64,000 nucleotides of DNA, from NCBI GenBank assembly GCA_902617515.1, contig CACMWX010000003.1, positions 16,886 to 80,885 of the forward strand, written 5' to 3'. The notes below the pieces were generated by a model that was given only the letters and a program-made list of their open reading frames with translations, ran no database searches and was not told the DNA's origin. A program made the translations under genes and the position numbers. This DNA is from an uncultured Alphaproteobacteria bacterium. Its GTDB lineage: Bacteria > Pseudomonadota > Alphaproteobacteria > HIMB59. Positions 1-30,646 of the stretch are shown here, piece by piece (position 1 is the first letter of the stretch; the number at the start of each line of letters is the position of its first letter).

Positions 1-1411
1 TGTTTACTTTTTCCTCAGCTTCTACAGCCTTAGCGCGAGCATTTTCTTCTTCCATTTTAGTTTTTAAGACTGACTTAGATTTTTCTAGAACTTCCATTTG
101 TTTTTGCTTTTCTTCAATTTCTATTCTTTTTGCCTTTTCAATATCTAAGACTCTTGTCTCTTGCTCAGCAGCAATTTTGAACGCATCAACATTTTTCTGT
201 TGAGCAGTTTTTGCATTTTTAATTTGCTCCTCAGCCATAATATAAGCCTCTTCAGACTCATACCTTTTTCTAGCTTCTTCTTTTGCTGTTTGAGCTTTTT
301 CCTCAGCAAGTTTGATATCAACTGATCTTTGTTTTTCTAGACGACTGAATTCAACATCTCTTTCTAATTCAAGAATAGTTTTTTCTGTCTCAATATCTTT
401 TTGTTTAATCTCGATAGAAGTTTGTTGTTTAAACTCATTTTGTTCTTTTCTTCTTTTCTCAATTTCTTGGATAAGTTTAGTTTCTTGTAAACTTTTTTCC
501 ATCTCAACAAAGTCTTTCTTGCTAATCTTTGCAATCTCAATATCTTTTTCTGAAGAGATTTCAGCCAGCTCAGACTCTTTGTCTTTCTCAGCTTTTGTTT
601 TTACTGTCTCAGTATTTTCAATAGCTCTTTGTTGTTCGATTTCACGTTTTTGTTGATACTTTGAAAATTCTTCCTCTTTTTCAATTTCAAGAGTTTGCTT
701 GATAGACTGGAGGTTTTTATTTCGAATACTTACCTCTGTATCTTTCTCAATATCATTTCTTTTCTTTTTACGTGACTGAGTAAATTCTGTTATTTGAGTT
801 AAACCCTCAGCATCAAATGTATTTGAAGGGTCGAATACACCCACGGGTGCTTGGTTAAGAGATGTCAATGAAACAGTCTCTAACTCCAAACCAGTGTGCT
901 TAATGGCTTCTTCAACATGAGCTGCAACATTTTTAATGTACTCAGATCTATTCTCTTGAATTTCATCAAGGCTCATTTTTGCGGCTACAACACCTAGTCC
1001 ATCAACAAATCGACCTTGAACAAGCTCCTTTAAATGATCAGGCTCTAATGTTCTATTTCCCAATGTTTGCGCAGCTATTGAGACAGCTTCAGTTGTAGGC
1101 GCTACTCTAACGTAGAATTCAGCGGTTACTTCAGCCCTCATTCTATTTTTTGTGATAAAAGATTTACTCCCGTTTCGTTGAACCTCTATACAAAGAGTTT
1201 TCATACCCACTGAGGTAATGTTATGAATAATAGGCAAAACGAAGGCACCTCCGCTGATCACAACTTGTTCACCTCCCATACCAGTTCTAACAAAAGCTAT
1301 TTCCTTTGAGGAACGCCTGTACAGCCAATGTAGCAAGTAAACTATAATTGCTATTGCTAACGCTATTAAGATTATTATTGCAATAATATCTGCACCACTA
1401 GTAATGTTCAT
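1..1411 (-). CDS. Flotillin / SPFH-domain membrane protein (C-terminal part runs off the left edge)
   Basis: Minus-strand frame opens at ATG 1411 behind a full Shine-Dalgarno AGGAGGTGAT (revcomp of 1420-1429). Translation MNITSGADIIAIIILIALAIAIIVYLLHWLYRRSSKEIAFVRTGMGGEQVVISGGAFVLPIIHNITSVGMKTLCIEVQRNG... is flotillin-like, followed by an E/K/Q-rich coiled coil. No stop before position 1. Confidence 0.88.
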   Translation of the reverse strand, partial: MNITSGADIIAIIILIALAIAIIVYLLHWLYRRSSKEIAFVRTGMGGEQVVISGGAFVLPIIHNITSVGMKTLCIEVQRNGSKSFITKNRMRAEVTAEFYVRVAPTTEAVSIAAQTLGNRTLEPDHLKELVQGRFVDGLGVVAAKMSLDEIQENRSEYIKNVAAHVEEAIKHTGLELETVSLTSLNQAPVGVFDPSNTFDAEGLTQITEFTQSRKKKRNDIEKDTEVSIRNKNLQSIKQTLEIEKEEEFSKYQQKREIEQQRAIENTETVKTKAEKDKESELAEISSEKDIEIAKISKKDFVEMEKSLQETKLIQEIEKRRKEQNEFKQQTSIEIKQKDIETEKTILELERDVEFSRLEKQRSVDIKLAEEKAQTAKEEARKRYESEEAYIMAEEQIKNAKTAQQKNVDAFKIAAEQETRVLDIEKAKRIEIEEKQKQMEVLEKSKSVLKTKMEEENARAKAVEAEEKVN

Positions 1412-1438: not shown

Positions 1439-2140
1439 TTATTGTCCATTAACTCTCATGTCTTGTATTGCTGCTTTGTAAATTATTAAACCAAAAACTA
1501 TTTTATTTAAAAAGTCTGCTAAATTATAAATCACATTAACACTATTGGGGTCAATGCCCCCGCCCAAATGCTCTATGAAATATCCCATTGGATATATAGC
1601 CCATCCAATTGTAATAATAAGTCTGTTCGAGAAGAAAACCATTTGTACATTTTCGTTTCCGCATCTAGCATTTGCTCTTCCGGCCTCTCCAACATATAGC
1701 TCACCGAGGATGTACAACCATCCAGCTAACCAAACAATGAAACCTAATGTCTTGCTCATATAACCCGCTGCACCTAAGAAACCTGCTACAACAAAAACTA
1801 AAGTTCCAACCAATAATCTCCAGAACATGCCTTGTTTAACTTTGACAACTGACATAAGCATTGCATAAAAAATAAGCACAAGCATTGGAAAGTTAAGAAA
1901 CCAATCTATATATCTTAATAAAGTTGGGGCGGTACCGCTGACTACCCAAAGATTTTTTACGAAGAAATAATGTATAGAGGACATCAAACATACAACAGCT
2001 ATCATTGTCATCGGTGTATGAAATCTCGAGCTTACTTTGCTGCGCTCAAAAAAGAAAAATAAGGTGGCACCAATCATGCCAACAGAAATTAACCAGAAAG
2101 ACCCCCCTACAATGTCGTAAGGGAGAAGCATTTTATTCAT
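1439..2140 (-). CDS. Microbial (type 1) rhodopsin, proteorhodopsin-like with variant helix C
   Basis: 233 aa, 7-TM pattern; helix C RYIDWFLNFPMLVLIFY, helix F GWAIYPMGYF, helix G NLADFLNKIVFG with Schiff-base Lys213; helix B His57 (IHYFF). Confidence 0.95.
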   Translation of the reverse strand: MNKMLLPYDIVGGSFWLISVGMIGATLFFFFERSKVSSRFHTPMTMIAVVCLMSSIHYFFVKNLWVVSGTAPTLLRYIDWFLNFPMLVLIFYAMLMSVVKVKQGMFWRLLVGTLVFVVAGFLGAAGYMSKTLGFIVWLAGWLYILGELYVGEAGRANARCGNENVQMVFFSNRLIITIGWAIYPMGYFIEHLGGGIDPNSVNVIYNLADFLNKIVFGLIIYKAAIQDMRVNGQ

Positions 2141-2264: not shown

Positions 2265-3656
2265 TTATATTTGCTCCCTAATATGGGGTGCTCTAGAGTA
2301 AAGAGCAACAAGAGGCAAAATAAGAAGACCAAATATAAATTGTTGACCCTCAAAACTTAAACCTAGTCCTGCCAAAAATGTACTAATGACTTGAAGTGCA
2401 AGAACACCGATTACTGTAAATCCGTATCCTCCATATCCGCCTAATAAGGAAGTTCCTCCTACAGCCACAGCTGCCACTGTTAAAAATAAATATTGATCAC
2501 CTACACCAATGAACCCTCCACCACTCCAACCCAGCAACATTGCTCCAGTTGCTGCAGAAGTAAACCCACTAATGACATAAACTCCAACCCAATAGGCTCT
2601 CTCAGAAATTGATAATCTGTCAGCAGATAACCTTTTTCCACCAACAGCATATAAGTTTCTTCCCCACTTAGTGTGTCTTAGTCCAACAATTAACAAAATT
2701 GAAATCAATATCCAAATTAAGATAACTGGAGGTATTGGAAGACCAAAAAATTTTCCATTTAATGAAGCTAGGTTTTTTAACCAGTCTGGAACTACACCGA
2801 ACACAGTTCCACCTGTAACAGTGGGAAGTGATACCAATATCTGTACTCCACCTACTACCATGAAGCCAACTCCAAGCGTAACTATTAATGATTGTCCTTG
2901 GAGATTAAAACTTATCAAACCATTGAAAAGCCCGACGATCGTACCAAAAGCAAGAATAACTATAAACGCAAGCCAAGGAGGAACTCCAAGTGAAATAAGT
3001 GACATTAATCCTAAATTAGTTGCGCCAATTAAAAATGGTATTGATAAATCTAGGCCGCCTAACATCACAACTAATGTTTGTCCAATAGTTGCAAGCCCTA
3101 AGAAAGAAGCAAAAACCAACATAGATTTAATATTCTGCAATGATAAGAAGCCATCAATAGAAACTGATCCGATTATAAAAAGACCAACTAACACTGCGAC
3201 TCCTATTATCACGCTCTTATTAATATTTAAAAATTTGTATGCAAGAAATGCTAAGATTAAGAAACCTAATAGTATGATTGCTGATACGACTGTTCTACCT
3301 GAGAAGAACCCGGGTACCAAAAAACACAGTAGTATAAAAAGACCTAAAAGAAGTAAAAATCCTGTAACAGCTATCCAGTTCTTTGCAATAAGGTCCCAAA
3401 AAAGGCTTCTTTTGCTTGTGGTTTCAGTAGTTTCAGGAGGTTGAGATCCATCTTCCTTTACTAAAGATCGATAAGACCATCTAACTAAGAAAAAATGCCA
3501 TCCCCAAAGAATAATGGCAACAACTGCTACAGAGTAAAATGCAACCTGTATCCAATCAGTTCTATCTACATAACCAAGAACTGCGGTACCTATCCCAGCA
3601 GCAACGGCAAAAAGAATTCCAAGTCCTTTTAAAAAATTATGAGTTCTTTTCTCCAT
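2265..3656 (-). CDS. ABC transporter permease, CUT2/ribose type (BPD_transp_2 family), with extra N-terminal TM segments
   Basis: GLATIGQTLVVMLGGLDLSIPFLIGATNLG and GGTSLLGGYGGYGFTVIGVLALQVISTFL motifs typical of RbsC-like permeases; 463 aa. Confidence 0.88.
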   Translation of the reverse strand: MEKRTHNFLKGLGILFAVAAGIGTAVLGYVDRTDWIQVAFYSVAVVAIILWGWHFFLVRWSYRSLVKEDGSQPPETTETTSKRSLFWDLIAKNWIAVTGFLLLLGLFILLCFLVPGFFSGRTVVSAIILLGFLILAFLAYKFLNINKSVIIGVAVLVGLFIIGSVSIDGFLSLQNIKSMLVFASFLGLATIGQTLVVMLGGLDLSIPFLIGATNLGLMSLISLGVPPWLAFIVILAFGTIVGLFNGLISFNLQGQSLIVTLGVGFMVVGGVQILVSLPTVTGGTVFGVVPDWLKNLASLNGKFFGLPIPPVILIWILISILLIVGLRHTKWGRNLYAVGGKRLSADRLSISERAYWVGVYVISGFTSAATGAMLLGWSGGGFIGVGDQYLFLTVAAVAVGGTSLLGGYGGYGFTVIGVLALQVISTFLAGLGLSFEGQQFIFGLLILPLVALYSRAPHIREQI

Positions 3657-3659
3657 TTA

Positions 3660-5933
3660 CTAAACTTTTCTATCTTCTGATAGACCTCCCCATTTTTCAA
3701 GTCCTTCTTGAGATTTTAATTTTATTTTATAAACACCAAACGCTTGCCATATCAGAGGTGAAATAGCTATTCCAATTGCTGTAATTAAAATCATTTTCCA
3801 ATAAGGATAACCAATTGCGAAGAACATCGCAGACCATGTTAATGCAGCTATACTTAAGATAGCAATGTAAGGTCTGAACCTAGCAAATGATATTTTTGCT
3901 CCCATTGTTAAATATGTAAAAAATTGAAATACAAATATTGCAAATATAATTAGTGCTGCTTCTTTAAGCCAAGTAACATCACTTGTGATAAATTCACCGC
4001 GGATAGGTCTTGTATAGTTTATTGATGATGTATCGCCAACAATTAATTCTGTAATAATTGGAGAGTAAAACTTACTTCCATCATCAGTAATAATTGTTCC
4101 AGATGGTGAGGCTAAAAAGTATACAGCGAGTATTGCTAATACACCGAGGAAAATAATGAAAACATTATTTAAATTGATATTCGAGAAAAGAGTTGGTGCC
4201 GTGAGTAAAAAAAGTAAAAATAAAATTAGTATTACAGCGTATCCATCTATCCCAAAGAAACTCTGTCTATTTGATTCAATTCCGTAATAAGATATTGCAG
4301 CAAATACAATAAATGAAATTGCTATTGCAAATAATACCAATGTTTGTGTTTTGATTTCTTTTCTAAATCTTGGCATAGCAATTATTACTATCGCAGATGT
4401 AAAGAAAACTATTCCTCCTAAAGTTGCGACAGCGTAAGCGAAGCCAACCAAAGCGCTCGAGGAAGATGAAAAATCAGGCAATCCTGCACCAACTCTTAGA
4501 TATTCAGATGTAAAATACTGAGGAGCATAATTTAAAATATATTGTAAGTTGGTACCCAAATCAGCGTTAACGAAATAAGCCTCTCTTGTGCCACTCCAAA
4601 CACAACCGAAGAAAATAACAATTGCTGCGATAATAAAAGACACTGTTGGGCCATCTCTATGTTTAACAAGCAAATAGACGAGATAAATCAAGGCTGCTAT
4701 TCCAATAGCAATAAACATCCACACTGTAGAATTTCCACCCTCTGCGCATGCCTTACCTGTGATTAAACAGTCACTCCCGGACTCAAGAGCTTTTTCAAAA
4801 ATCTCAGCATCTTTAGATTTACCTCCAAAACCTCCCACAGTCCCTCTAGTTACTTGATCAAATTTCATATGAATTTGAACAGCAGCAGCACTTAATGTTC
4901 CAATAATAAAAAATACAAAAACTGATAAATTTTTGAATGCTTTTTGAATATAAGGAAGTGCAATAAGTATTAAAAGAGAAGCCACCAATACCGCACCATA
5001 TGATAAGTCTGTTACGAAACTTTGAAATCTTTCAAACCTAAAAGTTGATAGAATAAAATTTATCAAATAAATGTTAACTGAACCTAGAATAGCTCCAAAC
5101 GCACCGCCTCTTCCACCAATTAAACTTGACCCACCTAATACAAGTGCTGTAACTGCCATCAATGTATAAGTAGTACCTTGAGTTGGGTCTCCAGAACCAA
5201 TTAAGCCTGTAAATGCAATAGCTGCCAGTGCAGCGTAAACTCCACCTATAATATGAGCGCCAATTCTTACGACGTAAATTCTCACTCCACTTGTATAAGC
5301 AGACTTTTCATCTGAACCCATTAATTTTAAATGTTGCCAGTAAGCAGTATGAGTTAGTGCATACCAAATAAGTGTCGAGAAAATTAAAAGTATTAGTGTG
5401 GGCTGTACTACCTCAGTGCCAGCACTCCAAGATAACATCCAATCAGGTGCTCTTCCTCCTGGTCTTGGTAAAATAACTAAATTGATACCAGAGAAAGCAA
5501 GAAACATACTTAAGGCAACTATTATTGGTTGAACTCTGATAAAAATTACGATTAAAGCATAAAGAAATTGGTAAATTACTCCTATTGCAAGAGCACATAT
5601 GAAATACGCAACTGGCGATTGAATATAACCTGCAGCATAAAGTTGTATTGTCGTTACATTAATAAAACCAATAAGTGGTCCTATTGATAAATCGACTGTT
5701 ACTCTGCCGGCTAAAGCCAATGCAGTAAGAGCATAAGTAGCAAGAATAAGGGGTGTTGAAACCATAATTGCGGTTCCAATACCCGAGCCTGAAATAATTT
5801 GAGGTCCTCTAATCATCGCAAAAATCATTAGGGCAAAAAATATAAATATTGGAACGATTAAGTATTTTGTTGACTGAGGATCAGAACCTGGAATTTGAGA
5901 GGGTTTTATTGCTGCTACAAGTTGATTAACCAT
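3660..5933 (-). CDS. ABC transporter permease, RbsC-like N-terminal half plus ~420-aa polytopic C-terminal extension
   Basis: VTVDLSIGPLIGFINV and LVLGGSSLIGGRGGAFGAILGSVNIYLI motifs in the first ~335 aa; 757 aa in total, with many further TM segments. Confidence 0.85.
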   Translation of the reverse strand: MVNQLVAAIKPSQIPGSDPQSTKYLIVPIFIFFALMIFAMIRGPQIISGSGIGTAIMVSTPLILATYALTALALAGRVTVDLSIGPLIGFINVTTIQLYAAGYIQSPVAYFICALAIGVIYQFLYALIVIFIRVQPIIVALSMFLAFSGINLVILPRPGGRAPDWMLSWSAGTEVVQPTLILLIFSTLIWYALTHTAYWQHLKLMGSDEKSAYTSGVRIYVVRIGAHIIGGVYAALAAIAFTGLIGSGDPTQGTTYTLMAVTALVLGGSSLIGGRGGAFGAILGSVNIYLINFILSTFRFERFQSFVTDLSYGAVLVASLLILIALPYIQKAFKNLSVFVFFIIGTLSAAAVQIHMKFDQVTRGTVGGFGGKSKDAEIFEKALESGSDCLITGKACAEGGNSTVWMFIAIGIAALIYLVYLLVKHRDGPTVSFIIAAIVIFFGCVWSGTREAYFVNADLGTNLQYILNYAPQYFTSEYLRVGAGLPDFSSSSSALVGFAYAVATLGGIVFFTSAIVIIAMPRFRKEIKTQTLVLFAIAISFIVFAAISYYGIESNRQSFFGIDGYAVILILFLLFLLTAPTLFSNINLNNVFIIFLGVLAILAVYFLASPSGTIITDDGSKFYSPIITELIVGDTSSINYTRPIRGEFITSDVTWLKEAALIIFAIFVFQFFTYLTMGAKISFARFRPYIAILSIAALTWSAMFFAIGYPYWKMILITAIGIAISPLIWQAFGVYKIKLKSQEGLEKWGGLSEDRKV

Positions 5934-5938
5934 TATTA

Positions 5939-7441
5939 TTAGTCAAAATATACGACTTTGATACCCCCTCTGTCAGACTGCGATCTTCCATGACCTACTT
6001 TAAGCTTATCTGTTTCAACAATTTTAATTCTCTTTGAGTCCAAATCAATATTTTTAGTAAAACCATTTTTAAAAGATGTCTTACTAATAAGAGTGTTTAA
6101 ATTATTTTCGATATATTTTGTGTTGTGTTTACCCTTTGTAAAGTTTTTGTCTTTGAGAAGACAAATTAAAAAGGGGATGTTTGTCTTAATACCTTCAATC
6201 TGGGTGCCCTCTAAAAATTTTATTAATTTGGATATAGCATCGTCTCGAATTAAGTCATGAGATATAATTTTTCCAATCATCGGATCATAATAGAAACTTA
6301 CTTCATCTCTCTCATCGTATCCCCAATCTAATCTTATGCCATTTGGTATTTTAGGAAATTTTAATTTATTTATTTTTCCTGGAGATGGTAAGAAATTTTG
6401 AGAAGGATCCTCTGCATAAACTCTGCACTCAATTGAATGTCCATAAGTTTTAATTTTACTTTGATTTAAAAATTTATTTTTTCTATTAAAAGCAAAATTT
6501 ATTTGCATGGAAATTAAATCATTATTTGTAACTAACTCTGTAACAGGATGTTCAACTTGAATTCTAGTATTCATCTCAAGAAAATAATATTTCATTTCTT
6601 GGACATCATATATAAACTCTACAGTACCTGCTCCTTCGTATTTTACATCAGAAGATAATTTTACAGCGGCTTGAGCCATATTGTTAATTAATTCCCTATC
6701 TACTTCTGGTGCCGGAGACTCCTCAATTATCTTTTGATATCTTCTTTGCATAGAGCAATCTCTTTCGAACAGATGCACGGATCCTTTTGCACCAAATCCA
6801 AAAACTTGTATTTCGATATGTCGGGCGTTGGTGATAAATTTCTCAATAAAAATATCTCCGTTACCAAAAGATTTTGCAGCAAGATTACTAGTTTTTTCAA
6901 TTGCATTAGCTAGGTCTTTAAAGTTTTGGACGACGCTCATGCCTATCCCCCCACCACCAGCACTTGATTTTACAAGTAAAGGGTAACCTATTGCTTCACA
7001 TTTTGTCTTAAGTTGTTCATCGCTTAATTTATGAACATTATTTATACCCGGACATATAGGTATATTGGAATTTAGGGCTAATTCACGAGCAATATCCTTA
7101 TTTCCCATTGATTTTATTGATTTTGGTTTAGGGCCAATCCATGTAATGCCTCTGTTTATGACCTCTTGAGCAAAAATGTCGTTTTCTGATAAAAAACCAA
7201 AACCAGGATGAATAGCATCCACATTTGATTTTGTAGCAATTTCTAAAATCTTATTGTAAGAAAGATAACTTTCCTGAGCTTTACTAGGTCCGATATAATA
7301 AGACTCGTCAGATAATCTCACATGCTTTGAATTCTTATCTGCATCTGAATAAATAGCTACAGATTTGTGACCTAATATTTTACAACTTTTTATAATTCTA
7401 TTTGCTATTTCACCGCGATTAGCAATTAAAATTTTTTTCAT
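5939..7441 (-). CDS. Biotin carboxylase (AccC-like / urea-carboxylase-like BC subunit)
   Basis: MKKILIANRGEIANRIIKSC N-terminus, ATP-grasp loop KSSAGGGGIGMSVV, FERDCSMQRRYQKIIEESPAP, FLEMNTRIQVEHPVTELV; 500 aa. Confidence 0.93.
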   Translation of the reverse strand: MKKILIANRGEIANRIIKSCKILGHKSVAIYSDADKNSKHVRLSDESYYIGPSKAQESYLSYNKILEIATKSNVDAIHPGFGFLSENDIFAQEVINRGITWIGPKPKSIKSMGNKDIARELALNSNIPICPGINNVHKLSDEQLKTKCEAIGYPLLVKSSAGGGGIGMSVVQNFKDLANAIEKTSNLAAKSFGNGDIFIEKFITNARHIEIQVFGFGAKGSVHLFERDCSMQRRYQKIIEESPAPEVDRELINNMAQAAVKLSSDVKYEGAGTVEFIYDVQEMKYYFLEMNTRIQVEHPVTELVTNNDLISMQINFAFNRKNKFLNQSKIKTYGHSIECRVYAEDPSQNFLPSPGKINKLKFPKIPNGIRLDWGYDERDEVSFYYDPMIGKIISHDLIRDDAISKLIKFLEGTQIEGIKTNIPFLICLLKDKNFTKGKHNTKYIENNLNTLISKTSFKNGFTKNIDLDSKRIKIVETDKLKVGHGRSQSDRGGIKVVYFD

Positions 7442-8223
7442 TTCTTATCAACGATATAAGGCATTTTAGTATGATTGCCGTTTGAAGTTTTTTGTGGAAT
7501 TTTTTTATCAGAGGAAATTTTTTCTCTCAGAGCCTTTAAGATTTCTACAGCATTAGGAGTGTCAGAGTGGACACAAATTGTTTCACATCCTACGACTACA
7601 TCGTTTCCTTGAACAGTTTTAACTTTATTTTCATTCATTGCTCTTAAACAACGCTCCACGGCTCTATCAGTTGGATAATATTTATTTCGACCCTTGGCTA
7701 TAACCAAATAACCTGTTTCATCATATTCCAAGTCAGAATAAAATTCTCCATAAAATTTTATTCCTCTTTCTTTGTATACTTTTTCATGAAAGGTATTAAC
7801 CATTCCGAAAATACCAACATTAAAAATTTCAGCTGCGTCAGCAATTCCATGAGCCACATCTTCCTCTTTCGCGGAGACACCATATAAAGATCCATGAGGT
7901 TTGATATGGTTTAGTGGCATTCCATACTCATCTAGAAAGGCTTTGATAGCACCAGTTTGATACATCACAAGATTTTTGATTTCATCACGTTTCATTTTCA
8001 TCGGCCTTCTTCCAAATCCTACTAAGTCAGGATAGGCAGGGTGCGATCCAACTTTCACATCATATTTTTTTGCAAGCTCGACAGTTTTCCTCATTGTGTT
8101 TGGGTCTGAGGCGTGAAACCCACAGGCTACATTAGCAGCATCTATATAAGGCATTATTTCTTCGTCATCTGCGAAGGAGTAAATACCAAAACCCTCACCC
8201 ATATCGCAATTCAAATCGACCAT
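7438..8223 (-). CDS. pxpA: LamB/YcsF family protein, 5-oxoprolinase subunit A
   Basis: VDLNCDMGEGFG...ANVACGFHASDPNTMRKTVELA...VGSHPAYPDLVGFGRRPM...HIKPHGSLY is the YcsF/PxpA signature. 4-bp overlap with the biotin carboxylase gene. Confidence 0.93.
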   Translation of the reverse strand: MVDLNCDMGEGFGIYSFADDEEIMPYIDAANVACGFHASDPNTMRKTVELAKKYDVKVGSHPAYPDLVGFGRRPMKMKRDEIKNLVMYQTGAIKAFLDEYGMPLNHIKPHGSLYGVSAKEEDVAHGIADAAEIFNVGIFGMVNTFHEKVYKERGIKFYGEFYSDLEYDETGYLVIAKGRNKYYPTDRAVERCLRAMNENKVKTVQGNDVVVGCETICVHSDTPNAVEILKALREKISSDKKIPQKTSNGNHTKMPYIVDKK

Positions 8224-8368
8224 GAATAATAAATTCCTCTCATTTATAATTTACAGAAAATCAGGCTTTTATGTGAAAATCTTTTCCACATGTTGGAACA
8301 ATTTTGCTTATATTTTTCAGAATATAGGTATTATTATAAATACTTATATAAGTAAGGAGGATAAAACT

Positions 8369-9529
8369 ATGATATTGCTTAAAAAGTTCATAGCTATTTT
8401 AGCTGTTAGTTTTGTCGGTGTCGCAGGTAACTTAAATGCTGACATTTTAGACGAAATTCCAGCTGATATTAGAGACTTCGTTTATAATCCTGACTTTATG
8501 GATCCTAACCAACCGCTTGGTGAAAGTGTATACAGAAATTGGAAAAGTGATAGACCACTTCCTTGGACTATCGGTTATGCAAGTTCTTACGCAGGTAATC
8601 TATGGAGAAAAGGTGTGATGGAGAGATTGTACGGTGACTATTTACCAAAAATGAAAGCAGCAGGTATTCTTAATGATATCGTTGTTACACAATCTAACCT
8701 AAAAGACGCGGTTCAAATTCAACAAATGAGACAGTTAACTGATCAAGGAGTTGACGGATTAATAGTCTGTTGCTCAAATCCTGTTGCATTAAATCCAACT
8801 ATTGAGTATGCGTATGGAAAAGGTGTTCCTACTGCATCAATGACAGGATACTTAACTTCAGAATATGCTATCAGTACATCTGTTAACTATAAATTAACCG
8901 GATATTATATTGCACAATGGTTAGCAGAAACTATTGGTGGTGAAGGTAATGTTGTTATCATGGAAGGAATTCCTGGAACATCAGCATCTGACTCACAGCA
9001 CCAAGGTATGCTAGATGGATTTGCAGAATATCCAGATATTACCGTTGTTGCTGAAATTGCACACATGTGGACACCACAAATTGCTCAAGCTGAACTTCAA
9101 AAATGGTTATCAGCTAATACAATTGAAGTTGACGGATTTGCTGTTCAGTCTTCAGGAGAGTCCGGAGCACTTAACGCTCTAGAATCATCTGGAAGACCAA
9201 TGGTCCCTATGGCTTTGGGTGGAGAAATTGGTGCATTCTGCTATTGGAGAAATAATCCAGACTTTATTGACAGAGCGGTCTATGCATGGCCTCCTGGAGA
9301 TGATGCAGAGTTTGCGATGAATGTTCTTTTAAGAACTATGTATGGTCAGGGTCTTAAAATCCAGTCTATCTTAGTTCCTCCATATGAAGAAGATGTTGAG
9401 ACTATTCAGTCATTTGTTCCTGAGGATTGTGACAGAAACTCAAGTGAGTTTAGAACTGTTGGAATTGAAAACTGGGCTAGTGATGAATACTTAAATAATT
9501 TCTTCGATCGTGGAGAAGCATTACTTTAA
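8369..9529 (+). CDS. Sugar-type ABC transporter substrate-binding protein
   Basis: The ORF is given from 8222, but the likely start is ATG 8369, preceded by AAGGAGG at 8354-8360 and giving a signal peptide (MILLKKFIAILAVSFVGVAGNLNA). Periplasmic-binding-protein fold motifs (TDQGVDGLIVCCSNPVALNP). Confidence 0.88.
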   Translation: MILLKKFIAILAVSFVGVAGNLNADILDEIPADIRDFVYNPDFMDPNQPLGESVYRNWKSDRPLPWTIGYASSYAGNLWRKGVMERLYGDYLPKMKAAGILNDIVVTQSNLKDAVQIQQMRQLTDQGVDGLIVCCSNPVALNPTIEYAYGKGVPTASMTGYLTSEYAISTSVNYKLTGYYIAQWLAETIGGEGNVVIMEGIPGTSASDSQHQGMLDGFAEYPDITVVAEIAHMWTPQIAQAELQKWLSANTIEVDGFAVQSSGESGALNALESSGRPMVPMALGGEIGAFCYWRNNPDFIDRAVYAWPPGDDAEFAMNVLLRTMYGQGLKIQSILVPPYEEDVETIQSFVPEDCDRNSSEFRTVGIENWASDEYLNNFFDRGEALL

Positions 9530-9541
9530 TTCAAGTAATTA

Positions 9542-11326
9542 ATGAATGAAGAAAAAACTTTGGACAGTGCCCCAAACGGGAATGGGGCACAGTCTAACTC
9601 CTCTAAGGTCGGAGGAGATATTTATGTTCAAGATGCATCAAAGTCCTTTGGTGTTACAAAAGCCCTAAACGGTGTAAATTTCAAAGCTAACTTTGGTGAA
9701 ATCCACGCCATTGTTGGTGGTAATGGATGTGGTAAGAGCACATTGGCAAAGGTTATTTCAGGAGTTTTACCTTTGGACAAAGGAAAGGTCTCTATTATGG
9801 GGCATTCACCAAATTCCCCAATTGAAGCTCAAAGAATTGGTATCGCAACAGTTTTTCAAGAAGTGATGATAGCTGAAGAGGCTACTGTTTATGAAAATTT
9901 ATTTATTGGATATGACTCTTTTTTTGGGAAAAAATTAGCACATCGAGATAGGGTCGAAAAAGCTGCCTCTATAATGTTAGAACTATCCGGTGAATTTGTC
10001 GATCCATATACAATAGCAAATCAATTATCGCTTGGTATGAAAGCTTGGATAACAATTGGTAGAGCATTTTTAAGAAATCCTAAAGTACTAATTTTAGATG
10101 AGTCATCAGCTGCTCTCGATTTTGACTCTACAGAAAGACTTTTTGCAAAAATGAGAACATTAAGAGATCAAGGTGCAGCAATCTTTATTGTAACTCACAG
10201 AATTGCAGAGCTAGTTAGGATAAGCGATAGAGCAACAGTTATGAGAGATGGGGTTGATGTTGGAGTTTTAGCAGGAGAGGAAATTACTGAAAAAAATCTT
10301 CTAGGACTTATGACAGGTGATAAAAAATTTTCTACAGCATCAGAAATAAAAGCTACACCTCCAGACTCAATCTCAGATGAAATAGTTTTGTCTGCTAAAG
10401 ATTTAAAAGTTTGGGAAAATGGAGATGTTATTAACTTTGATCTTCCAAAAGGTGAGATACTTGGAGTCACAGGACTTGATGGGCAAGGACAAGATAATTT
10501 TGTTAAGGCTCTTGCAGGTATCGATCAACCACTTAGCGGAGAAGTAATTGTTAAACAGTCTGATGAGGAAAGAGAGAGAACCAAGAAAGATTACACTACT
10601 GTGAATAGCTTGTTAGATGCCAAGAAAAGTGGAGTTGGATATGTATCTGGAGATAGAAAAAAAGAGGGTATTTTTCCTAACATGAGCATATATGAAAATA
10701 TGGTCATACCTTTATATAAAGGAAAACAAGCTAAAACATCAGGTGGATTTATTGGTTTTATTAAATGGATGGAATTAAACGGTATTTTTGATTGGGAAGT
10801 AGAAAGATTAAGTATTAAGACAGGTCCAAAGAATAATCTAATTACCTCATTGAGTGGAGGAAATCAGCAAAAAGTCATGATTGCCAGAGCTTTCACAACA
10901 ACTCCAAAAATATTAATACTTAATGATCCAGCGAGAGGTATTGATGTTGGCGCAAAACGAGACTTATATAAACACTTAAGAATTTTCGTAAATGAAGGTG
11001 GTACAGCGATATTTCTATCAAGTGAACTCGAGGAATTTATAGGATTATGTCATCGAGTTTTAGTTTTTAGAGATGGGAGCATATTTGAGACCTTTGAGAA
11101 AGAGGATATTAATCCAAATACTATTCTTGAAGGAATGTTTGGTCATACTCAAAAGAAATCTAATGATAATAATTTATCAAGTACGCAAAATTCAAATCAA
11201 AAAGCTAATACTAATGCAGAGATTCAAAATAAAATTATTAAACCGACTGTGCCTACAAATGTCAAAGTTGTAGATTTTACAGATAAACCTAAGAGCAAAG
11301 AAAAAATTAAAGTTAAATATTTTTAA
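9542..11326 (+). CDS. Sugar ABC transporter ATP-binding protein (tandem ATPase, RbsA/MglA type)
   Basis: Walker A GGNGCGKST; second signature LSGGNQQKVMIARAF, DPARGIDVGAKRDLY; 594 aa with N/Q/K-rich C-terminal tail. Confidence 0.93.
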   Translation: MNEEKTLDSAPNGNGAQSNSSKVGGDIYVQDASKSFGVTKALNGVNFKANFGEIHAIVGGNGCGKSTLAKVISGVLPLDKGKVSIMGHSPNSPIEAQRIGIATVFQEVMIAEEATVYENLFIGYDSFFGKKLAHRDRVEKAASIMLELSGEFVDPYTIANQLSLGMKAWITIGRAFLRNPKVLILDESSAALDFDSTERLFAKMRTLRDQGAAIFIVTHRIAELVRISDRATVMRDGVDVGVLAGEEITEKNLLGLMTGDKKFSTASEIKATPPDSISDEIVLSAKDLKVWENGDVINFDLPKGEILGVTGLDGQGQDNFVKALAGIDQPLSGEVIVKQSDEERERTKKDYTTVNSLLDAKKSGVGYVSGDRKKEGIFPNMSIYENMVIPLYKGKQAKTSGGFIGFIKWMELNGIFDWEVERLSIKTGPKNNLITSLSGGNQQKVMIARAFTTTPKILILNDPARGIDVGAKRDLYKHLRIFVNEGGTAIFLSSELEEFIGLCHRVLVFRDGSIFETFEKEDINPNTILEGMFGHTQKKSNDNNLSSTQNSNQKANTNAEIQNKIIKPTVPTNVKVVDFTDKPKSKEKIKVKYF

Positions 11327-11331
11327 ATTCA

Positions 11332-12594
11332 ATGGTTCAAGAATATAAAAATACAGATTTAGATTTATTTCAAAAAATAGATTTAACCAATCCTAAAGAT
11401 GAGTTATTAAAAAAAAACAAGATAGGATCATCGCAACAAGAAAACAATAATATAAAATTTAATTATTTAAATCACGAGATTTCAAAATTTGAAAATTTAG
11501 AGAGTCATTTATCTCAAGATAAATCAAAAAAAGTTGATGATATTTTATTCTCTCAACTTGATGTTGACGATTATGCTAGTTTCAAAAATATGTATCCTCA
11601 TAATATTTCTCAACCTAAATTAAATGTAAGTAAACTCTCTGTAAAAAAACATATAAACGAGGATGGCACTTATCCCAATTTAGTTTCAAAGAATACAAAA
11701 GATAAAACCTCAGAGATATTTCAGGGAATTTACCCTGAGCCAAAGTTTTTACCAGGTGGTGATAAGTATTTATTAATAGAATTTGGTAATGTGATGAATT
11801 TAGAATTGAACTTTAAAGCTCAGGGGCTATCAAACTTAATTAAGACAGCAAATATAAAGGGAGTTTACGAAACACTCCCATGTTTTGCCTCAATGATAGT
11901 TCACTACAATCCAGATGATATCGGCTATCAAGATTTAATTAATGAATTGAAATCATTGCTTAAAGATATGAGAGATAATGATGATACTGTTGTAAATAGC
12001 AGACTTTTTCATTTCCCGACTGTCTATCTTGACAAATGGACAAAAGAGGCAATTGAAGACTATATAGCTAAAATCACAATGAAAAAGCCAGATCCTGAGT
12101 TCATTACAGAATTAAACCAATTAGATGACGTTAATCATTTTGTCAGAGTTCACTCTGGAACTGAGTATTGGGTGGCTTCGCTTGGTTTTTGGCCCGGTTT
12201 ACCATTTACAATGCCGCTTGACCCTAGGTGCAAATTAACCGCTCCAAAGTATAACCCACCTAGAACATGGACACCAAAAGGAACTGTGGGTATGGGAGGA
12301 TCGTCCACAGCTATTTATCCTGATAGGCTACCTGGAGGTTATCAAATTTTTGGTAGAACCCCTGTACCTATTTGGGATCCTGACAAGAATTTTGATGTTT
12401 TCAAAGATAGCATTTGTCTATTTAGGCCAGGAGATAGAATTAAATTTGTACCTTGTGATTATGATGAGTTTGAAATGATTGAAAAAAAAGTTGAGGATAA
12501 GTCATATCGATATGATTTAATTGAGGAGCATAAATTTTCTATCAAAAAATATAAAAGCTGGTTGTCTAAACTAGATTATAAAAAGAAGTTTTAA
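11332..12594 (+). CDS. pxpB: 5-oxoprolinase subunit B / KipI / AHS1-domain protein with ~134-aa N-terminal extension
   Basis: FLPGGDKYLLIEFG...HSGTEYWVASLGFWPGLPFTMPLDPR...PRTWTPKGTVGMGGSSTAIYPDRLPGGYQIFGRTPVPIWD is typical of the AHS1/KipI family. Confidence 0.92.
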   Translation: MVQEYKNTDLDLFQKIDLTNPKDELLKKNKIGSSQQENNNIKFNYLNHEISKFENLESHLSQDKSKKVDDILFSQLDVDDYASFKNMYPHNISQPKLNVSKLSVKKHINEDGTYPNLVSKNTKDKTSEIFQGIYPEPKFLPGGDKYLLIEFGNVMNLELNFKAQGLSNLIKTANIKGVYETLPCFASMIVHYNPDDIGYQDLINELKSLLKDMRDNDDTVVNSRLFHFPTVYLDKWTKEAIEDYIAKITMKKPDPEFITELNQLDDVNHFVRVHSGTEYWVASLGFWPGLPFTMPLDPRCKLTAPKYNPPRTWTPKGTVGMGGSSTAIYPDRLPGGYQIFGRTPVPIWDPDKNFDVFKDSICLFRPGDRIKFVPCDYDEFEMIEKKVEDKSYRYDLIEEHKFSIKKYKSWLSKLDYKKKF

Positions 12595-13563
12595 ATGTTT
12601 GAAGTTATTAAACAAGGACTAGAAACATCAGTGCAAGATTATCCCGGGAGAGTTGGTTATCTTAACCAAGGGTTCCCTCCATCAGGACCAATGGATAGTT
12701 GGTCTTTTCGACTTGCCAATTTACTTGTAGGTAATGAGGAGAGTTTTGCAGCGCTTGAGTGTCAGTACACTGGTCCAACTTTAAAATTTGAAAAAGATCA
12801 TGTCATTGCAGTCTGTGGTGCTGATATGCAGCCCAAAATAAATGGAAATTCTATTCCTATGTGGGAGAGTGTTTTAATAAAATCTGGACAAACTCTTGAA
12901 ATGGGTTTTACAGTATCTGGTGCAAGATCTTATGTGTCTTTTGCTGGAGGCATTGAGTCAGAAAAATGGCTAAACTCTCAATCAACTTTTCACAAAGCAG
13001 GCGTTGGTGGCATTGATGGTCATGCTTTGAAAGACGGTCAAAGAGTCCCTTTAGGTCAATCTAATGGGAAGATCGGTAGAAAAATTAGAACTGACTCAAT
13101 TCCAGAGATTAGCAATAGTGGTATTTGGGAAATTGAGGTTGTTCGGGGACCAAATGATGATTGGCTTGACGACGATGGATATGACACTTTTCTTAAAGCA
13201 GAGTGGAAACTTCAAGCAAGAAGTGATCGTACTGGATTTAGGTTGGATGGACCCACTTTAAGTTTTACTGAAAAAGCTACAAATAAATCTCCTGAACATG
13301 GCTATGAACCCTCAAATATAATAGATCAGGGCTACCCAATTGGTGGTATTAATTTGGCGGGTCAAACGCCAATAATACTTGTAAATGATGGGCCTAGTAT
13401 GGGTGGGTTTATTGTACCTTTTACTGTTCCATCAGCCTCTTTTTGGAAATTAGGACAAGCTAAACCAAATGAAAAATTTAAGTTTAAAGAAATAAGTGTG
13501 CAAGAGGCACAGGAAATGAGATCTGAACAAACCTCCATCTGCTCAATGGGAAGTGTCATATAA
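12595..13563 (+). CDS. pxpC: 5-oxoprolinase subunit C / KipA / AHS2-domain biotin-dependent carboxyltransferase family
   Basis: VIKQGLETSVQDYPGRVGYLNQGFPPSGPMDSWSFRLANLLVGNEE...VRGPNDDWL...RSDRTGFRLDGP...PIILVNDGPSMGGF. Confidence 0.93.
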   Translation: MFEVIKQGLETSVQDYPGRVGYLNQGFPPSGPMDSWSFRLANLLVGNEESFAALECQYTGPTLKFEKDHVIAVCGADMQPKINGNSIPMWESVLIKSGQTLEMGFTVSGARSYVSFAGGIESEKWLNSQSTFHKAGVGGIDGHALKDGQRVPLGQSNGKIGRKIRTDSIPEISNSGIWEIEVVRGPNDDWLDDDGYDTFLKAEWKLQARSDRTGFRLDGPTLSFTEKATNKSPEHGYEPSNIIDQGYPIGGINLAGQTPIILVNDGPSMGGFIVPFTVPSASFWKLGQAKPNEKFKFKEISVQEAQEMRSEQTSICSMGSVI

Positions 13564-16226: not shown

Positions 16227-16865
16227 TTAAAATTTCAAGAATGACTGTATCTCTTTTGCTAGAGCCAACATTTCTAAACACCCTTTTCCAGTTCTTTGTT
16301 TTTCTACTACTGTTAACCCTAATCCCATAGTTGATACAAATATTTGTCTATTACCCAAAATCGTCTTTGCTTTTTTAACATTCATTTTATTAACAAATTT
16401 ATGTGCTTCTTGAATAAGTTTAGATTTTGCATTTGCTCTATTAATGAGTATTAATATCTCTCTTTTTTCTCTTTTCGCTAATTCAATTATGGACTCCGTG
16501 GCCCAAAAATCCACTTGAGAGGGAGATATCGGTATAATGACAAGGTCAGCTATTTCAATTGCTGGTCTTCCATCAGCGTCAATTTTGGGAGGAGTATCAA
16601 TTATTACTAAATCAGATTTTTCTTTAAGCGTTTTTGCCTCATACTGTGCGCCCCAGAGGCTTGCTGTTTTAAACTGAATCATGTTTTTATTTTTAAGTTT
16701 TTCATTTCTGGTAATAAACCACTTACCTAAACTGCCTTGAGGGTCTGTGTCGAGTAATGTCGTGGATAAATTATTTTTTAAAGAATAAACAGCAGCTAAA
16801 TTTGCAGCTATAGTGGTTTTTCCAGAGCCTCCTTTTTGTTGAGCGATGGTAATAACCTTAGACAC
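16227..16865 (-). CDS. ParA/MinD-family P-loop ATPase (orphan ParA)
   Basis: MSKVITIAQQKGGSGKTTIAANLAAVYS deviant Walker A; DTDPQGSLGKW; DLVIIDTPP. Confidence 0.92.
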   Translation of the reverse strand: MSKVITIAQQKGGSGKTTIAANLAAVYSLKNNLSTTLLDTDPQGSLGKWFITRNEKLKNKNMIQFKTASLWGAQYEAKTLKEKSDLVIIDTPPKIDADGRPAIEIADLVIIPISPSQVDFWATESIIELAKREKREILILINRANAKSKLIQEAHKFVNKMNVKKAKTILGNRQIFVSTMGLGLTVVEKQRTGKGCLEMLALAKEIQSFLKF

Positions 16866-22492: not shown

Positions 22493-23446
22493 TTATTTAA
22501 TTTCTCCAATTTCAAACTTCATTTGATGTTTATAAATTTGTGATGGGTTTAATTGTGTTGAAGGAAATTTTCGATTATTGGGTGCGTTTGGAAAACCCTG
22601 AGTTTCAAAACACATACCTTGATATTTTTTAATTTTAATACGATTACTGGAATATTTTAAATGCTGACCAGTATAAAATTGAACACCAGGTTGATTTGAA
22701 AAAATTTTTAGGGATAAATTGCTTTTTGGTGATTGTATTTTAGCTGCAAACTTAGAATTTTTTTTTATGATGAAATTTTCATCAAATCCCTTGAATTTAT
22801 TAGTAAATTTATCGCGTATCCTAGTTAATTTTTTAAAATCAAAACGTGTTCCTTTTACATTCATTACCCTACCAGTAGGTATATTTTCAGAGTCATTTTC
22901 TAAGTACTGATTTGAATTGATTTGGACGTGGTGATCAAAAATATCTTTTTTAATTTTATTTAAATTCCAATAGGCGTGATTTACCAAATTAACGTGAGTA
23001 GTTTTTGATGTTTGTGCACTTATATTGATTTTTAGAGTCGAATTTGCAATTGAGTAATCACAACTGGAATATAATTCTCCTGGGAAACCCTGATCTTTAT
23101 CTGGTGATATACAATAATAGCTAATATGAGATTTGGAGAAGCTCTTAACTTGCCAAATTTTTGAGTCAAACCCTTTTTTACCACCATGTAGTATATTTTT
23201 TCCCTCATTTCTAGTTAATTTGTATTTTACTCCTTTGATCTGAAATTGAGCTTTTTTTATTCTATTTGCATACCTACCACATGTTGCGCCTAAGTAATTT
23301 TTATTATTTTTATATGATGAGATATTTCCTAAATTTAGAATTAAATTGATTTTTTTCTTTTTATAAAAAACTTCAAATAATGTAGCACCAATATTGAGAG
23401 TCTTAACTCTTAAAAACTTATTTTCAATTGTGTGCGATTTAATCAT
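22493..23446 (-). CDS. galM: Aldose 1-epimerase
   Basis: LGATCGRYANRIKKAQF...NILHGGKKGFDSKIWQ...VNLVNHAYWNLN...GVQFYTGQHL...CFETQGFPNAPN. Confidence 0.92.
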   Translation of the reverse strand: MIKSHTIENKFLRVKTLNIGATLFEVFYKKKKINLILNLGNISSYKNNKNYLGATCGRYANRIKKAQFQIKGVKYKLTRNEGKNILHGGKKGFDSKIWQVKSFSKSHISYYCISPDKDQGFPGELYSSCDYSIANSTLKINISAQTSKTTHVNLVNHAYWNLNKIKKDIFDHHVQINSNQYLENDSENIPTGRVMNVKGTRFDFKKLTRIRDKFTNKFKGFDENFIIKKNSKFAAKIQSPKSNLSLKIFSNQPGVQFYTGQHLKYSSNRIKIKKYQGMCFETQGFPNAPNNRKFPSTQLNPSQIYKHQMKFEIGEIK

Positions 23447-23452
23447 GAATAG

Positions 23453-24283
23453 TTAAATTTTTGAAATATTCTCTAAAACTTTTTTTGTTACTTCTTTTAA
23501 TCTTGGAATAGTTGAATTGATTAATTTAATACGGTCATAAGTATTTGGATCTTTTGCAATTTCCCCTCTTAAAGTATCGCCAAAAGTTTTTCTGAGTTCA
23601 GTGCCGATATTAAACTTACAAACATTCGTTGTATTTGCTATCGTTCTTTTAAGTGTATCGTCGATACCGCTACTTCCGTGCAGCACCAATGGTACTTCGG
23701 TTAAGGTTTCTATCTTCTTTATGACTTGCATATCAATAGAAGAGGATTTGTTTGTCTGTAAGTGTACGTTTCCTGCACTGATGGCCATTGCATCACATTT
23801 GGTTAATTCAGCAAATGTCTTCGCTTCTTCTGGATCTGTGCTTTGTGACTTAGCACCATCATTGTAACCAACAAATCCAATTTCTCCCTCAACGGAAATA
23901 TTTTGTTTATGAGCTAATTCAACGATTTCACTTGTTTTATCAACGTTTTCGTTAAGTGAAAGCTTGGATCCATCAAACATTACAGATGTGAATCCGTTGT
24001 CAATTGCCTGTAAACACTCTTCTTTCGTATAGCCATGATCTAAATGACAAACTATTGGACTAGATGATTGCTCAGCCAAGTATCTAAACATTTTACCTAA
24101 AACTGGTAGAGGTGTATTTGCTCTACAACCTGGTCCTGCTTGAAGAATGACAGGTACCTTGAGCTCTTCGGCTGTTTCTGCATAACATCTTGCATCTTCC
24201 CAACCTAATACTACTAATCCTGCAACGGCATAATTATTTTTTTTTGCTTCTTGTAAAACTTCTGAAAGGCTAGCTATCGTCAT
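23453..24283 (-). CDS. Class II fructose-bisphosphate/ketose-bisphosphate aldolase (IolJ-type role plausible)
   Basis: VCHLDHGYTKEECLQAIDNGFTSVMFDGSKL; VEGEIGFVGY; VPLVLHGSSGIDDTLKRTIANTTNVCKFNIGTELR. Confidence 0.92.
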   Translation of the reverse strand: MTIASLSEVLQEAKKNNYAVAGLVVLGWEDARCYAETAEELKVPVILQAGPGCRANTPLPVLGKMFRYLAEQSSSPIVCHLDHGYTKEECLQAIDNGFTSVMFDGSKLSLNENVDKTSEIVELAHKQNISVEGEIGFVGYNDGAKSQSTDPEEAKTFAELTKCDAMAISAGNVHLQTNKSSSIDMQVIKKIETLTEVPLVLHGSSGIDDTLKRTIANTTNVCKFNIGTELRKTFGDTLRGEIAKDPNTYDRIKLINSTIPRLKEVTKKVLENISKI

Positions 24284-25122
24284 TTATATTTTGCTATCAT
24301 ATCCTTAATACCTGGGATTGTTTCTAATTGGTAAGCATGAGTTTTTTGGAAAGATTGAATAAGTGATCTTTGAGAAAGACCTACTAGGATTGTAAAATAA
24401 TACATCTCATATCCTGGGGCAACCACACATGGATGATATCCTTTATTAATTGCAATAGTAGAGCCATTAAAAAGTTGATAACCGTGACCCTCTTTTTCAT
24501 CTTCTGATTGCATAATTTGAACACCAAAACCATGTCCAGGTTTAAATCGATAATTATAAACTTCATCATGACGAGTTTCTTGAGGGAGATCATCTGTGTC
24601 GTGTTTGTGAGGAGGGAAGCCTGACCACCCTCCAGCGCCAACAGTATATAATTCATTTACTAATAATCGACCAACTTGATCATGATGTTTCGCACCTAAG
24701 ATATGTTTAATTTTTCTGTGAGTTTTAGTATCGTCTGAGCCGTATTGAACAACATCTAGTTCTTCTTTTAAAACGAGAAATGGCTCTAATTTTTTTTCAT
24801 AAATTCCACCAGCTATGAAACACTCAGAGGAGTTAGATAAACAAGTTATTTTACATTTTGAATTTGTAGGAATATAACTACCTTCAGGTTCACCATCCCA
24901 TACGTCAGTTGTTCTTTTTCCAATCTGTCCTAACTTATTATCCTCCACGGTAATCTCGACGATACCTGTTGCTGGAACTACGCTACTTTCATGTTTTGAT
25001 AGTTGGTATTCATAAGACTCACCTTTTTTTAAATTGATAATATTAAAATAAACTAAAGGTACTGTTTTATTTGTTTCTCCAAATAAAGCTTGATTTTTAT
25101 TATCTGAATAAGGGATGTGCAT
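24280..25122 (-). CDS. iolB: 5-deoxy-glucuronate isomerase
   Basis: VNELYTVGAGGWSGFPPHKHDTDDLPQETRHDEVYNYRFKPGHGFGVQIM...IAINKGYHPCVVAPGYEMYYFTILVG is characteristic of IolB. Confidence 0.93.
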   Translation of the reverse strand: MHIPYSDNKNQALFGETNKTVPLVYFNIINLKKGESYEYQLSKHESSVVPATGIVEITVEDNKLGQIGKRTTDVWDGEPEGSYIPTNSKCKITCLSNSSECFIAGGIYEKKLEPFLVLKEELDVVQYGSDDTKTHRKIKHILGAKHHDQVGRLLVNELYTVGAGGWSGFPPHKHDTDDLPQETRHDEVYNYRFKPGHGFGVQIMQSEDEKEGHGYQLFNGSTIAINKGYHPCVVAPGYEMYYFTILVGLSQRSLIQSFQKTHAYQLETIPGIKDMIAKYK

Positions 25123-26085
25123 CTATGACTCCTTTTGATTTTGGTTAATAAATTTTTCTAATTCCTGATTATTGGGCATAGCAGAGGAACATCCTACTCT
25201 TGTTACTACTATTGCAGCATTTGCGGAACCCCGAATTACTGCATCCTCTAAACTAAGGCCATTGTATAGGGAGCTTATAAAACCTCCATTGAACGCGTCA
25301 CCTGCACCCGTTGGTTTAATAGCTTCGACATTAAATGTCCCGTATTGGCTCTCATTTTCTTTAGTAAATACTTTGGATCCCTCTTCACCCATTTTATAGA
25401 CAATTACTGATGGTTTTTTTTTAATATACATTTTTGCTAATTCAAGTCCATTTGTGGAATTATCAGCCACATTAAATTCTAAATCGTTTCCAATGATTAT
25501 ATCCATTTCATTCATAATTTCTTTATATACATCTGATTTAATTGTATCAGACTCCCAATTGTAAGGCCGATAATCAAGATCGATTATTAATGGTATCTTG
25601 AGATCTGAAGTTAGTTTTGAGGCAACCAAAACAGCATTCCTTGAAGGTTCTCCTGAAAGCGCAGTTCCAGAGATGAATACTGCAGAGTAATTATTGAAGT
25701 TAATTTTATTAATATCCTCTTTATTAAGTTGCAGGTCGCAAGGATTACTTCTGTAAAGAATAGATTGATTATTTTTTAAAATAGTTTCAACAACAGCTAT
25801 TTGTGTTTGAAAGGATTTATTGACTTTCCTGCAGTGTTCTACACCAACTTTGAATTCATTAAGTTTATTAATAATATATTCTCCGATTGCATCGTCAGAT
25901 ACACAAGTAAGTAAATCAGTGCTGACACCCAAGTTCGATAGAGCAACACAAGTATTTGCCGCCGAGCCTCCTAAATGAGAGGAAAAGTTATTTACATCAG
26001 AGATTTTTGTACCGGGTGGCTCTGGGTAAATATCTAATCCAGCTCTCCCTATTACAAGAATTTTTTTCGTATTATCAAATTTCAT
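25123..26085 (-). CDS. iolC: 5-dehydro-2-deoxygluconokinase-like PfkB kinase
   Basis: GRAGLDIYPEPPG...FSSHLGGSAANTCVALSNLG...IIDLDYRPYNW...PTGAGDAFNGGFI; adjacent to iolB. Confidence 0.85.
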   Translation of the reverse strand: MKFDNTKKILVIGRAGLDIYPEPPGTKISDVNNFSSHLGGSAANTCVALSNLGVSTDLLTCVSDDAIGEYIINKLNEFKVGVEHCRKVNKSFQTQIAVVETILKNNQSILYRSNPCDLQLNKEDINKINFNNYSAVFISGTALSGEPSRNAVLVASKLTSDLKIPLIIDLDYRPYNWESDTIKSDVYKEIMNEMDIIIGNDLEFNVADNSTNGLELAKMYIKKKPSVIVYKMGEEGSKVFTKENESQYGTFNVEAIKPTGAGDAFNGGFISSLYNGLSLEDAVIRGSANAAIVVTRVGCSSAMPNNQELEKFINQNQKES

Positions 26086-26119
26086 TTAATGAAAATTAAG
26101 TCTAGAGGAATTATTGTAA

Positions 26120-27277: not shown

Positions 27278-27286
27278 GAGTAATGG

Positions 27287-28744: not shown

Positions 28745-28808
28745 AATTTAATACTAACAGTTTTAAATACCTTTCTGTAGTGACATTTTGTTTCCAAATA
28801 TATTAAAA

Positions 28809-30534: not shown

Positions 30535-30646
30535 TGAACCCTCCTGATATGAGATTATAAATAAATAAATCATTTAGAGAATACATAAATTATAAATATG
30601 AATTATTTTTGTTTTTAATATCAAAAGAATATTATATTTCTGAGTT

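Follow-up and report, generated by a model that had tools for sequence, protein, structure and literature searches.

A flotillin-associated rhodopsin of HIMB59 with an apparently filled retinal pocket, probably a light-independent partner of flotillin and an ABC importer

The rhodopsin gene at positions 1439-2140 (minus strand, 233 residues) of the window, by which we mean the whole 64,000-nucleotide stretch of HIMB59 DNA analysed here, is the DNI type of flotillin-associated rhodopsin (FArhodopsin, FAR) of the HIMB59/AEGEAN-169 group, a type that has already been described. We put at roughly two in three the probability that its product is a retinal-independent, light-independent and probably pentameric membrane partner of flotillin and of an ABC importer. 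Both the gene and its DNI motif have been published; what was found is not a novel slow pump or sensor. New here are the apparent filling of the retinal pocket by different residues, the large-genome and sponge-associated carriers, the split in the occurrence of Blh, and the contrast in selection between FAR and proteorhodopsin (PR).

Sequence features and family assignment

The initial annotation had read a rhodopsin in this open reading frame, leaving its strand unstated, and had listed D79, N83, L87, I90, Lys213, Asp209 and His57; all are present, as are W80 and Arg76. By arithmetic from the ORF start, the helix-C motif lies at 1871-1906 (minus strand), with the codons of D79 at 1906-1904, N83 at 1894-1892, F84 at 1891-1889, L87 at 1882-1880 and I90 at 1873-1871, and the kept codon of K213, the retinal-lysine position, lies at 1502-1504 (minus strand). 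The protein was aligned by MAFFT with green proteorhodopsin (GPR) and bacteriorhodopsin (BR). In this alignment D79 corresponds to D97, N83 to T101, L87 to L105, I90 to E108, D209 to D227 and K213 to K231. The retinal Lys (K213) and the Asp counter-ion (D79) of proton pumps are present, Thr101 is replaced by Asn, and the carboxylate donor of proton-pumping PRs (GPR E108) is Ile90, all in agreement with the earlier reading; a shifted carboxylate that might replace the donor was looked for in helix C of the same alignment, and none was seen.

The protein matches the Pfam family Bac_rhodopsin at 5e-32, and NCBIfam holds no FAR model. The gene is considered real because of this match, its presence in 38 of the 52 genomes of the genus and its pooled dN/dS of 0.014. 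A viral origin was rejected after one scan of viral contigs, which returned no close relatives.

FArhodopsins owe their name to the flotillin gene next to the rhodopsin, which in the window had escaped the initial annotation. Haro-Moreno et al. (2023, PMC10308929) described the motifs DTT in Pelagibacterales, DTL in Pseudothioglobus and DNI in HIMB59, placed all marine FARs in three streamlined taxa, and reported that flotillin adjoins the FAR and that a canonical DTE PR is always found elsewhere in the genome. The window gene resembles the HIMB59 FArhodopsin of that study in taxon, DNI motif, flotillin directly downstream, short N-terminus and DTE paralogue elsewhere, as well as in its cluster, which contains genes for an ABC translocator, a sodium symporter, a biotin-dependent carboxylase, PxpA and a dimethylformamidase-like protein, and it shows no difference that would exclude it from the group. 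In a tree of 45 rows the FARs form a single clade (support 100/100), separate from the proton-pumping PRs, with the window gene placed among HIMB59 single-cell genomes; together with the comparison of FAR loci, the tree supports DNI as the mark of a clade. The window subclade has L87, G120 and W137 rather than Q87, E120 and G137.

With the green and blue PRs (DTE pumps) the window FAR shares the fold, the Asp acceptor, Asp209, the retinal Lys and His57, and it is 47-49% identical to the PR of its own genome. Unlike these pumps, it has no donor Glu, its N-terminus is about 23 residues shorter, its pocket appears filled, it bears the FAR signatures A124, G146 and E190, and its neighbour is flotillin, not the retinal genes. 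The freshwater FArhodopsins without the retinal lysine (PMC10308929) and the Rh-noK proteins have the rhodopsin fold and are judged incapable of binding retinal; the lysine is absent from them, whereas the window FAR has it. A separate 2023 paper mentions, for the HIMB59 group, rhodopsin paralogues that lack a functional prediction, and our literature search on the function of FARs or of PsFAR, the structurally solved member considered below, returned nothing beyond the 2023 publications.

Structure and the retinal pocket

A PDB sequence search with the window FAR returned 9r21 and 9r23, both named flotillin-associated rhodopsin. The entry titles (released 2025-07-23) give 9r21 as PsFAR, 9r23 as PsFAR H84V/E120G, and 9r22 as the pump PsPR. 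PsFAR, whose entry contains five chains, belongs to the same clade as the window FAR and has the same fold: the two are 56% identical over 230 columns (9r21), and an AlphaFold model of the window FAR (mean pLDDT 80, built from 19 input sequences only) compares with PsFAR at a TM score of 0.88. Sites 84 and 120 number one to one in the two proteins in the MAFFT alignment with GPR and BR, and align with GPR V102 and G138 (BR T90 and G122), which belong to the retinal pocket in established rhodopsin structures. The double mutant swaps both sites to the PR residues and thus looks designed to reopen the pocket, a purpose read from the titles and sequences of the entries. PsFAR has the pocket fillers H84 and E120 and the motif D-T-M, whereas the window FAR has F84, F116, G120 and W137 and the motif D-N-I.

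The donor Glu is absent in every FAR examined (all FAR loci fetched) and present in all PRs examined. At site 84 FARs have F, H, V or A where PRs always have V, and at site 120 they have E, Q, A or G where PRs always have G. The window subclade (68 locus rows, including near-duplicates) combines F84, F116, G120 and W137, its sister subclade (10 rows) F84, F116, E120 and G137, and the SAR11-type FARs F84, W116 and Q120, the helix-F Trp and Pro being also lost in the latter (F180, H184). Pocket residues are therefore conserved within clades and different between them. The W137 codon (1730-1732, minus strand; BR Ser141/GPR Gly155 site) is clade-specific, and the Trp is predicted to fill the retinal pocket at its beta-ionone end. 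BR S141 is the counterpart of site 137 and BR M118 that of site 116, and both lie close to the beta-ionone ring. Loss of E120 and gain of W137 form one event on one branch, which suggests, short of proof, that W137 may compensate for the missing E120, and the E120G/G137W swap provides a concrete set of pocket residues.

Summed over eight pocket sites, a crude measure, side-chain volume amounts to 1403 Å3 in the window clade, 1313 Å3 in the sister clade and 1359 Å3 in the SAR11 type, compared to 1154-1158 Å3 in PRs, 1223-1250 Å3 in the PsFAR type and 970-1023 Å3 in the sponge-symbiont FAR group, which is PR-like or roomier. By this measure three plankton lineages overfill the retinal pocket with different residues, and the sponge group does not. 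From its residues we infer that the pocket of the window FAR does not take retinal; if no retinal is bound, the green absorption that had been predicted from Leu87 is moot.

Distribution of FARs and supply of retinal

FAR occurs in 38 of the 52 genomes of the genus, and in eight of the ten with completeness of at least 90%. The window genome (949 kb, 63% complete) encodes one further rhodopsin on another contig (L001 1477-2244), a DTE PR with Gln at the tuning site, located beside a GGPP-synthase-like gene, crtI, crtY and blh. The initial annotation was right that retinal-biosynthesis genes are missing from the vicinity of the FAR, and its guess of a second paralogue is borne out by this canonical rhodopsin.

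The FAR cluster was also found in MAGs labelled Rhodospirillaceae (SB0661_bin_7, CO36386bin_9, Spongia_Bin9 and bin65), Kiloniellaceae, Hyphomicrobiales, Chromatiales, a gammaproteobacterium and EF100-94H03 bin56, these large-genome carriers measuring 3.7-5.4 Mb. A sponge origin, presumed for the remaining carriers, is supported for some by the name Spongia and by the label EF100-94H03. This label is mentioned in a paper on Aplysina aerophoba bins. The large-genome loci (L090-L092 and L095-L105) have helix-C motifs D-T-V, D-T-I, D-T-T, D-T-S or D-T-L and a roomy pocket in which Gly replaces Trp at site 141. Loci from SAR116, Cellvibrionales and UBA genomes that the scan of genome contigs also picked up encode ordinary PRs, with the DTE motif and no flotillin and in several cases with Blh elsewhere in the genome, and were kept out of the FAR count; a second FAR copy in one genome (L089, G008:C23) falls inside the SAR11 type and is probably a stray contig.

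FAR is the sole rhodopsin in 14 genomes, six of which are 95-97% complete. These genomes bear on the hypothesis (PMC10308929) that FAR is an accessory subunit which forms a hetero-oligomer with a canonical PR and tunes or regulates the pump. A PR is also encoded in the window genome and in many other FAR-bearing members of the genus, and the pentameric structures of PsFAR and PsPR were deposited together. However, at least 11 FAR-only genomes, six of them 95-97% complete, lie outside HIMB59 and SAR11, and to these is added a HIMB59 SAG that is 94% complete (G030). A canonical PR partner is thus not universal for the family, and pairing is excluded as its general function; pairing in particular lineages is still allowed, and we regard it as an improbable role for the window FAR. 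The HIMB59 SAG (locus L087) contains a FAR without PR, Blh or CrtI, contrary to the published rule that a PR accompanies every FAR; a missing contig is possible in this case.

Blh (PF15461) was detected in none of the 14 FAR-only genomes and in all 17 PR-bearing genomes (Fisher p = 2e-7 for the first 25 genomes, related genomes not being independent); the genomes compared are SAGs or MAGs, many of them incomplete, with shared ancestry. Strong CrtY and CrtI homologues split in the same manner as Blh, except for CrtI in one genome. Lycopene cyclase (PF05834) matched all genomes through a short FAD-binding stretch, so a match had to exceed 100 bits to count. FAR-only genomes, lacking Blh as they do, speak against retinal-based and PR-partner functions as a general rule. 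Eight of the FAR-only genomes encode RPE65-family dioxygenases, and those of several sponge-type FAR genomes might cleave carotenoids to give retinal or another apocarotenoid; these enzymes and the roomy sponge-type pocket speak against retinal independence in that group.

An alphaproteobacterial genome that is 100% complete (G727) contains a FAR relative with 30% identity (L203 1967-2701), placed as in the window between ABC importer genes and flotillin. This relative carries K213R, D79G and D209E, and no Blh was found in its genome. Such a copy is compatible with a structural charge pair that persists without retinal, and it recalls the freshwater FARs that have lost the lysine. G727 is possibly a cultivable strain.

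The initial annotation favoured a protein that binds retinal and acts as a sensor, pumps protons slowly or transports a different ion. In accord with this, Lys213, Asp79, Asp209, His57 and Arg76 are kept, the host genome makes retinal for its own PR, and K213, D79 and D209 persist in nearly all marine FARs, which would be unexpected if they were useless. The proposal nevertheless appears unlikely. No FAR, from any environment, keeps the donor, the pocket of the window clade looks filled, FAR-only genomes have no Blh, and a lysine-less relative (G727) occupies the same gene cluster. In addition, the FAR cluster has no transducer gene (PMC10308929), and an expressed DTT-type relative showed neither retinal binding nor pumping or pH change, to go by the account of Olson et al. 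given in PMC10308929. The missing donor, the bulky pocket residues, the sites altered in the PsFAR mutant, the Blh split, the G727 copy and the DTT-type relative are the grounds on which we favour retinal independence. Of the earlier interpretation, the divergent PR relative with Ile in place of the donor Glu, present as a paralogue, stands, and the light-driven mechanisms become unlikely.

Gene cluster and proposed role

Flotillin (662 residues in full; Pfam Flot 2e-29, and Band_7) lies on the same strand as FAR, with its start 27 nt beyond the FAR stop, occupies 1-1411 (minus strand) and continues past the window edge (locus L003 16308-18296). Directly upstream of FAR, across a gap of 124 nt, lies an ABC importer permease (BPD_transp_2; 2265-3656), followed, again on the minus strand, by a second, long permease of the same family (3660-5933), a biotin carboxylase-like protein (5939-7441) and a PxpA-like (LamB/YcsF) protein (7438-8223). 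Divergent from these, on the plus strand, are a sugar-type periplasmic substrate-binding protein (Peripla_BP_4; 8222-9529, the true start being probably inside the ORF), the importer ATPase (9542-11326), which is kept with the cluster in relatives, and a urea carboxylase-related pair (11332-13563) that is PxpB-like (11332-12594) and PxpC-like (12595-13563). Beyond flotillin are a 129-residue protein, an alpha/beta hydrolase, a sodium symporter and a dimethylformamidase-like pair. The window matches the published FAR-cluster set of translocator, sterol-carrier-like protein, hydrolase, symporter and dimethylformamidase-like protein, and the cluster enzymes suggest, as far as sequence goes, that an amide- or lactam-like solute is imported and degraded.

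The core kept across FAR loci is ABC permease - FAR - flotillin - 129-residue protein - alpha/beta hydrolase. Flotillin adjoins FAR in 38 of 38 copies of the genus and in all other FAR loci examined, and the binding protein shares the cluster with FAR in many loci. The 129-residue protein (L003 15909-16298), termed SCP2-like here, occupies the place of the sterol-carrier protein of PMC10308929 and matched neither a Pfam nor an NCBIfam family in its own right. It is 76-81% conserved in most distant FAR clusters, exceeding the conservation of FAR itself. In one genome (G016; L027 2224-3697) the flotillin frame is broken into two overlapping ORFs by a frameshift or an assembly error. A ParA-like ATPase gene (16227-16865) adjoins the edge of the FAR cluster in the window, and positions 22493-31651 contain what appears by eye to be an inositol-catabolism-like run (IolB-like protein, sugar kinase, IolG-like dehydrogenases, MmsA-like aldehyde dehydrogenase and IolE-like isomerase), after which comes a further sugar-type ABC transporter (32556-34936).

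As a light-independent partner of flotillin and importer, the window FAR would be made together with flotillin and would form or reside in a membrane domain containing the neighbouring ABC importer, organising the lipid environment of the importer and of associated catabolic proteins. It would be pentameric like PsFAR, and its retained Lys and Asp residues would form a structural charge pair. The most concrete candidate for its activity, by analogy with other opsins, may be retinal-independent lipid scrambling: scrambling that does not depend on retinal has been shown for actinorhodopsin, bacteriorhodopsin and bovine opsin, in the case of actinorhodopsin as a pentamer (PMC12805836).

The same observations could be read to mean that FAR is a dedicated, light-independent phospholipid scramblase within a flotillin-defined domain, the ancestral moonlighting activity of opsins being now its sole function. 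The need for a pentamer, the five chains of PsFAR and the flotillin that always follows FAR would fit such a role. The case is one of analogy, however; scrambling would also be expected of the canonical PR in the same cell, which leaves the existence of a dedicated copy to be explained otherwise, and the genes conserved nearby encode an importer and hydrolases, not lipid-synthesis enzymes. We consider this reading possible but doubtful. Alternatively, FAR might be a chemoreceptor-like seven-helix protein that takes up the imported solute, or some other small molecule, in its reshaped pocket and passes a signal to flotillin or the importer. The clade-specific pocket residues, conserved inside clades, the adjoining permease and the binding protein present in the cluster at many loci are in keeping with this possibility; against it, the pocket of the window clade looks filled rather than open to a ligand, and no ligand was seen or predicted here, so we give it little credence.

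Extended to the whole family, the preferred reading of a light-independent membrane partner would make FARs retinal-free pentamers that never need light and that organise the membrane, perhaps as dedicated scramblases, in association with flotillin and an ABC importer, reaching far beyond streamlined plankton to sponge-associated and other large-genome proteobacteria without Blh, with a pocket filled differently by lineage; we offer this wider view tentatively, with the odds against it. If FARs are light-independent organisers in abundant marine bacteria and sponge symbionts, rhodopsin gene counts taken as markers of phototrophy overestimate the use of light.

Selection on FAR and its neighbours

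Over unsaturated pairs, pooled dN/dS in HIMB59 is 0.014 for FAR and 0.078 for PR, so that purifying selection on FAR is about five times stronger than on PR. The values for its neighbours are 0.017 for flotillin, 0.016 for the adjacent permease and 0.008 for the hydrolase. The low pooled value indicates that FAR is functional and more constrained than the pump. Between close HIMB59 genomes (FAR and PR loci of 12 genomes), the synonymous difference is 0.09-0.16 in FAR versus 0.016 in PR, as if one of the two loci had been exchanged or swept.
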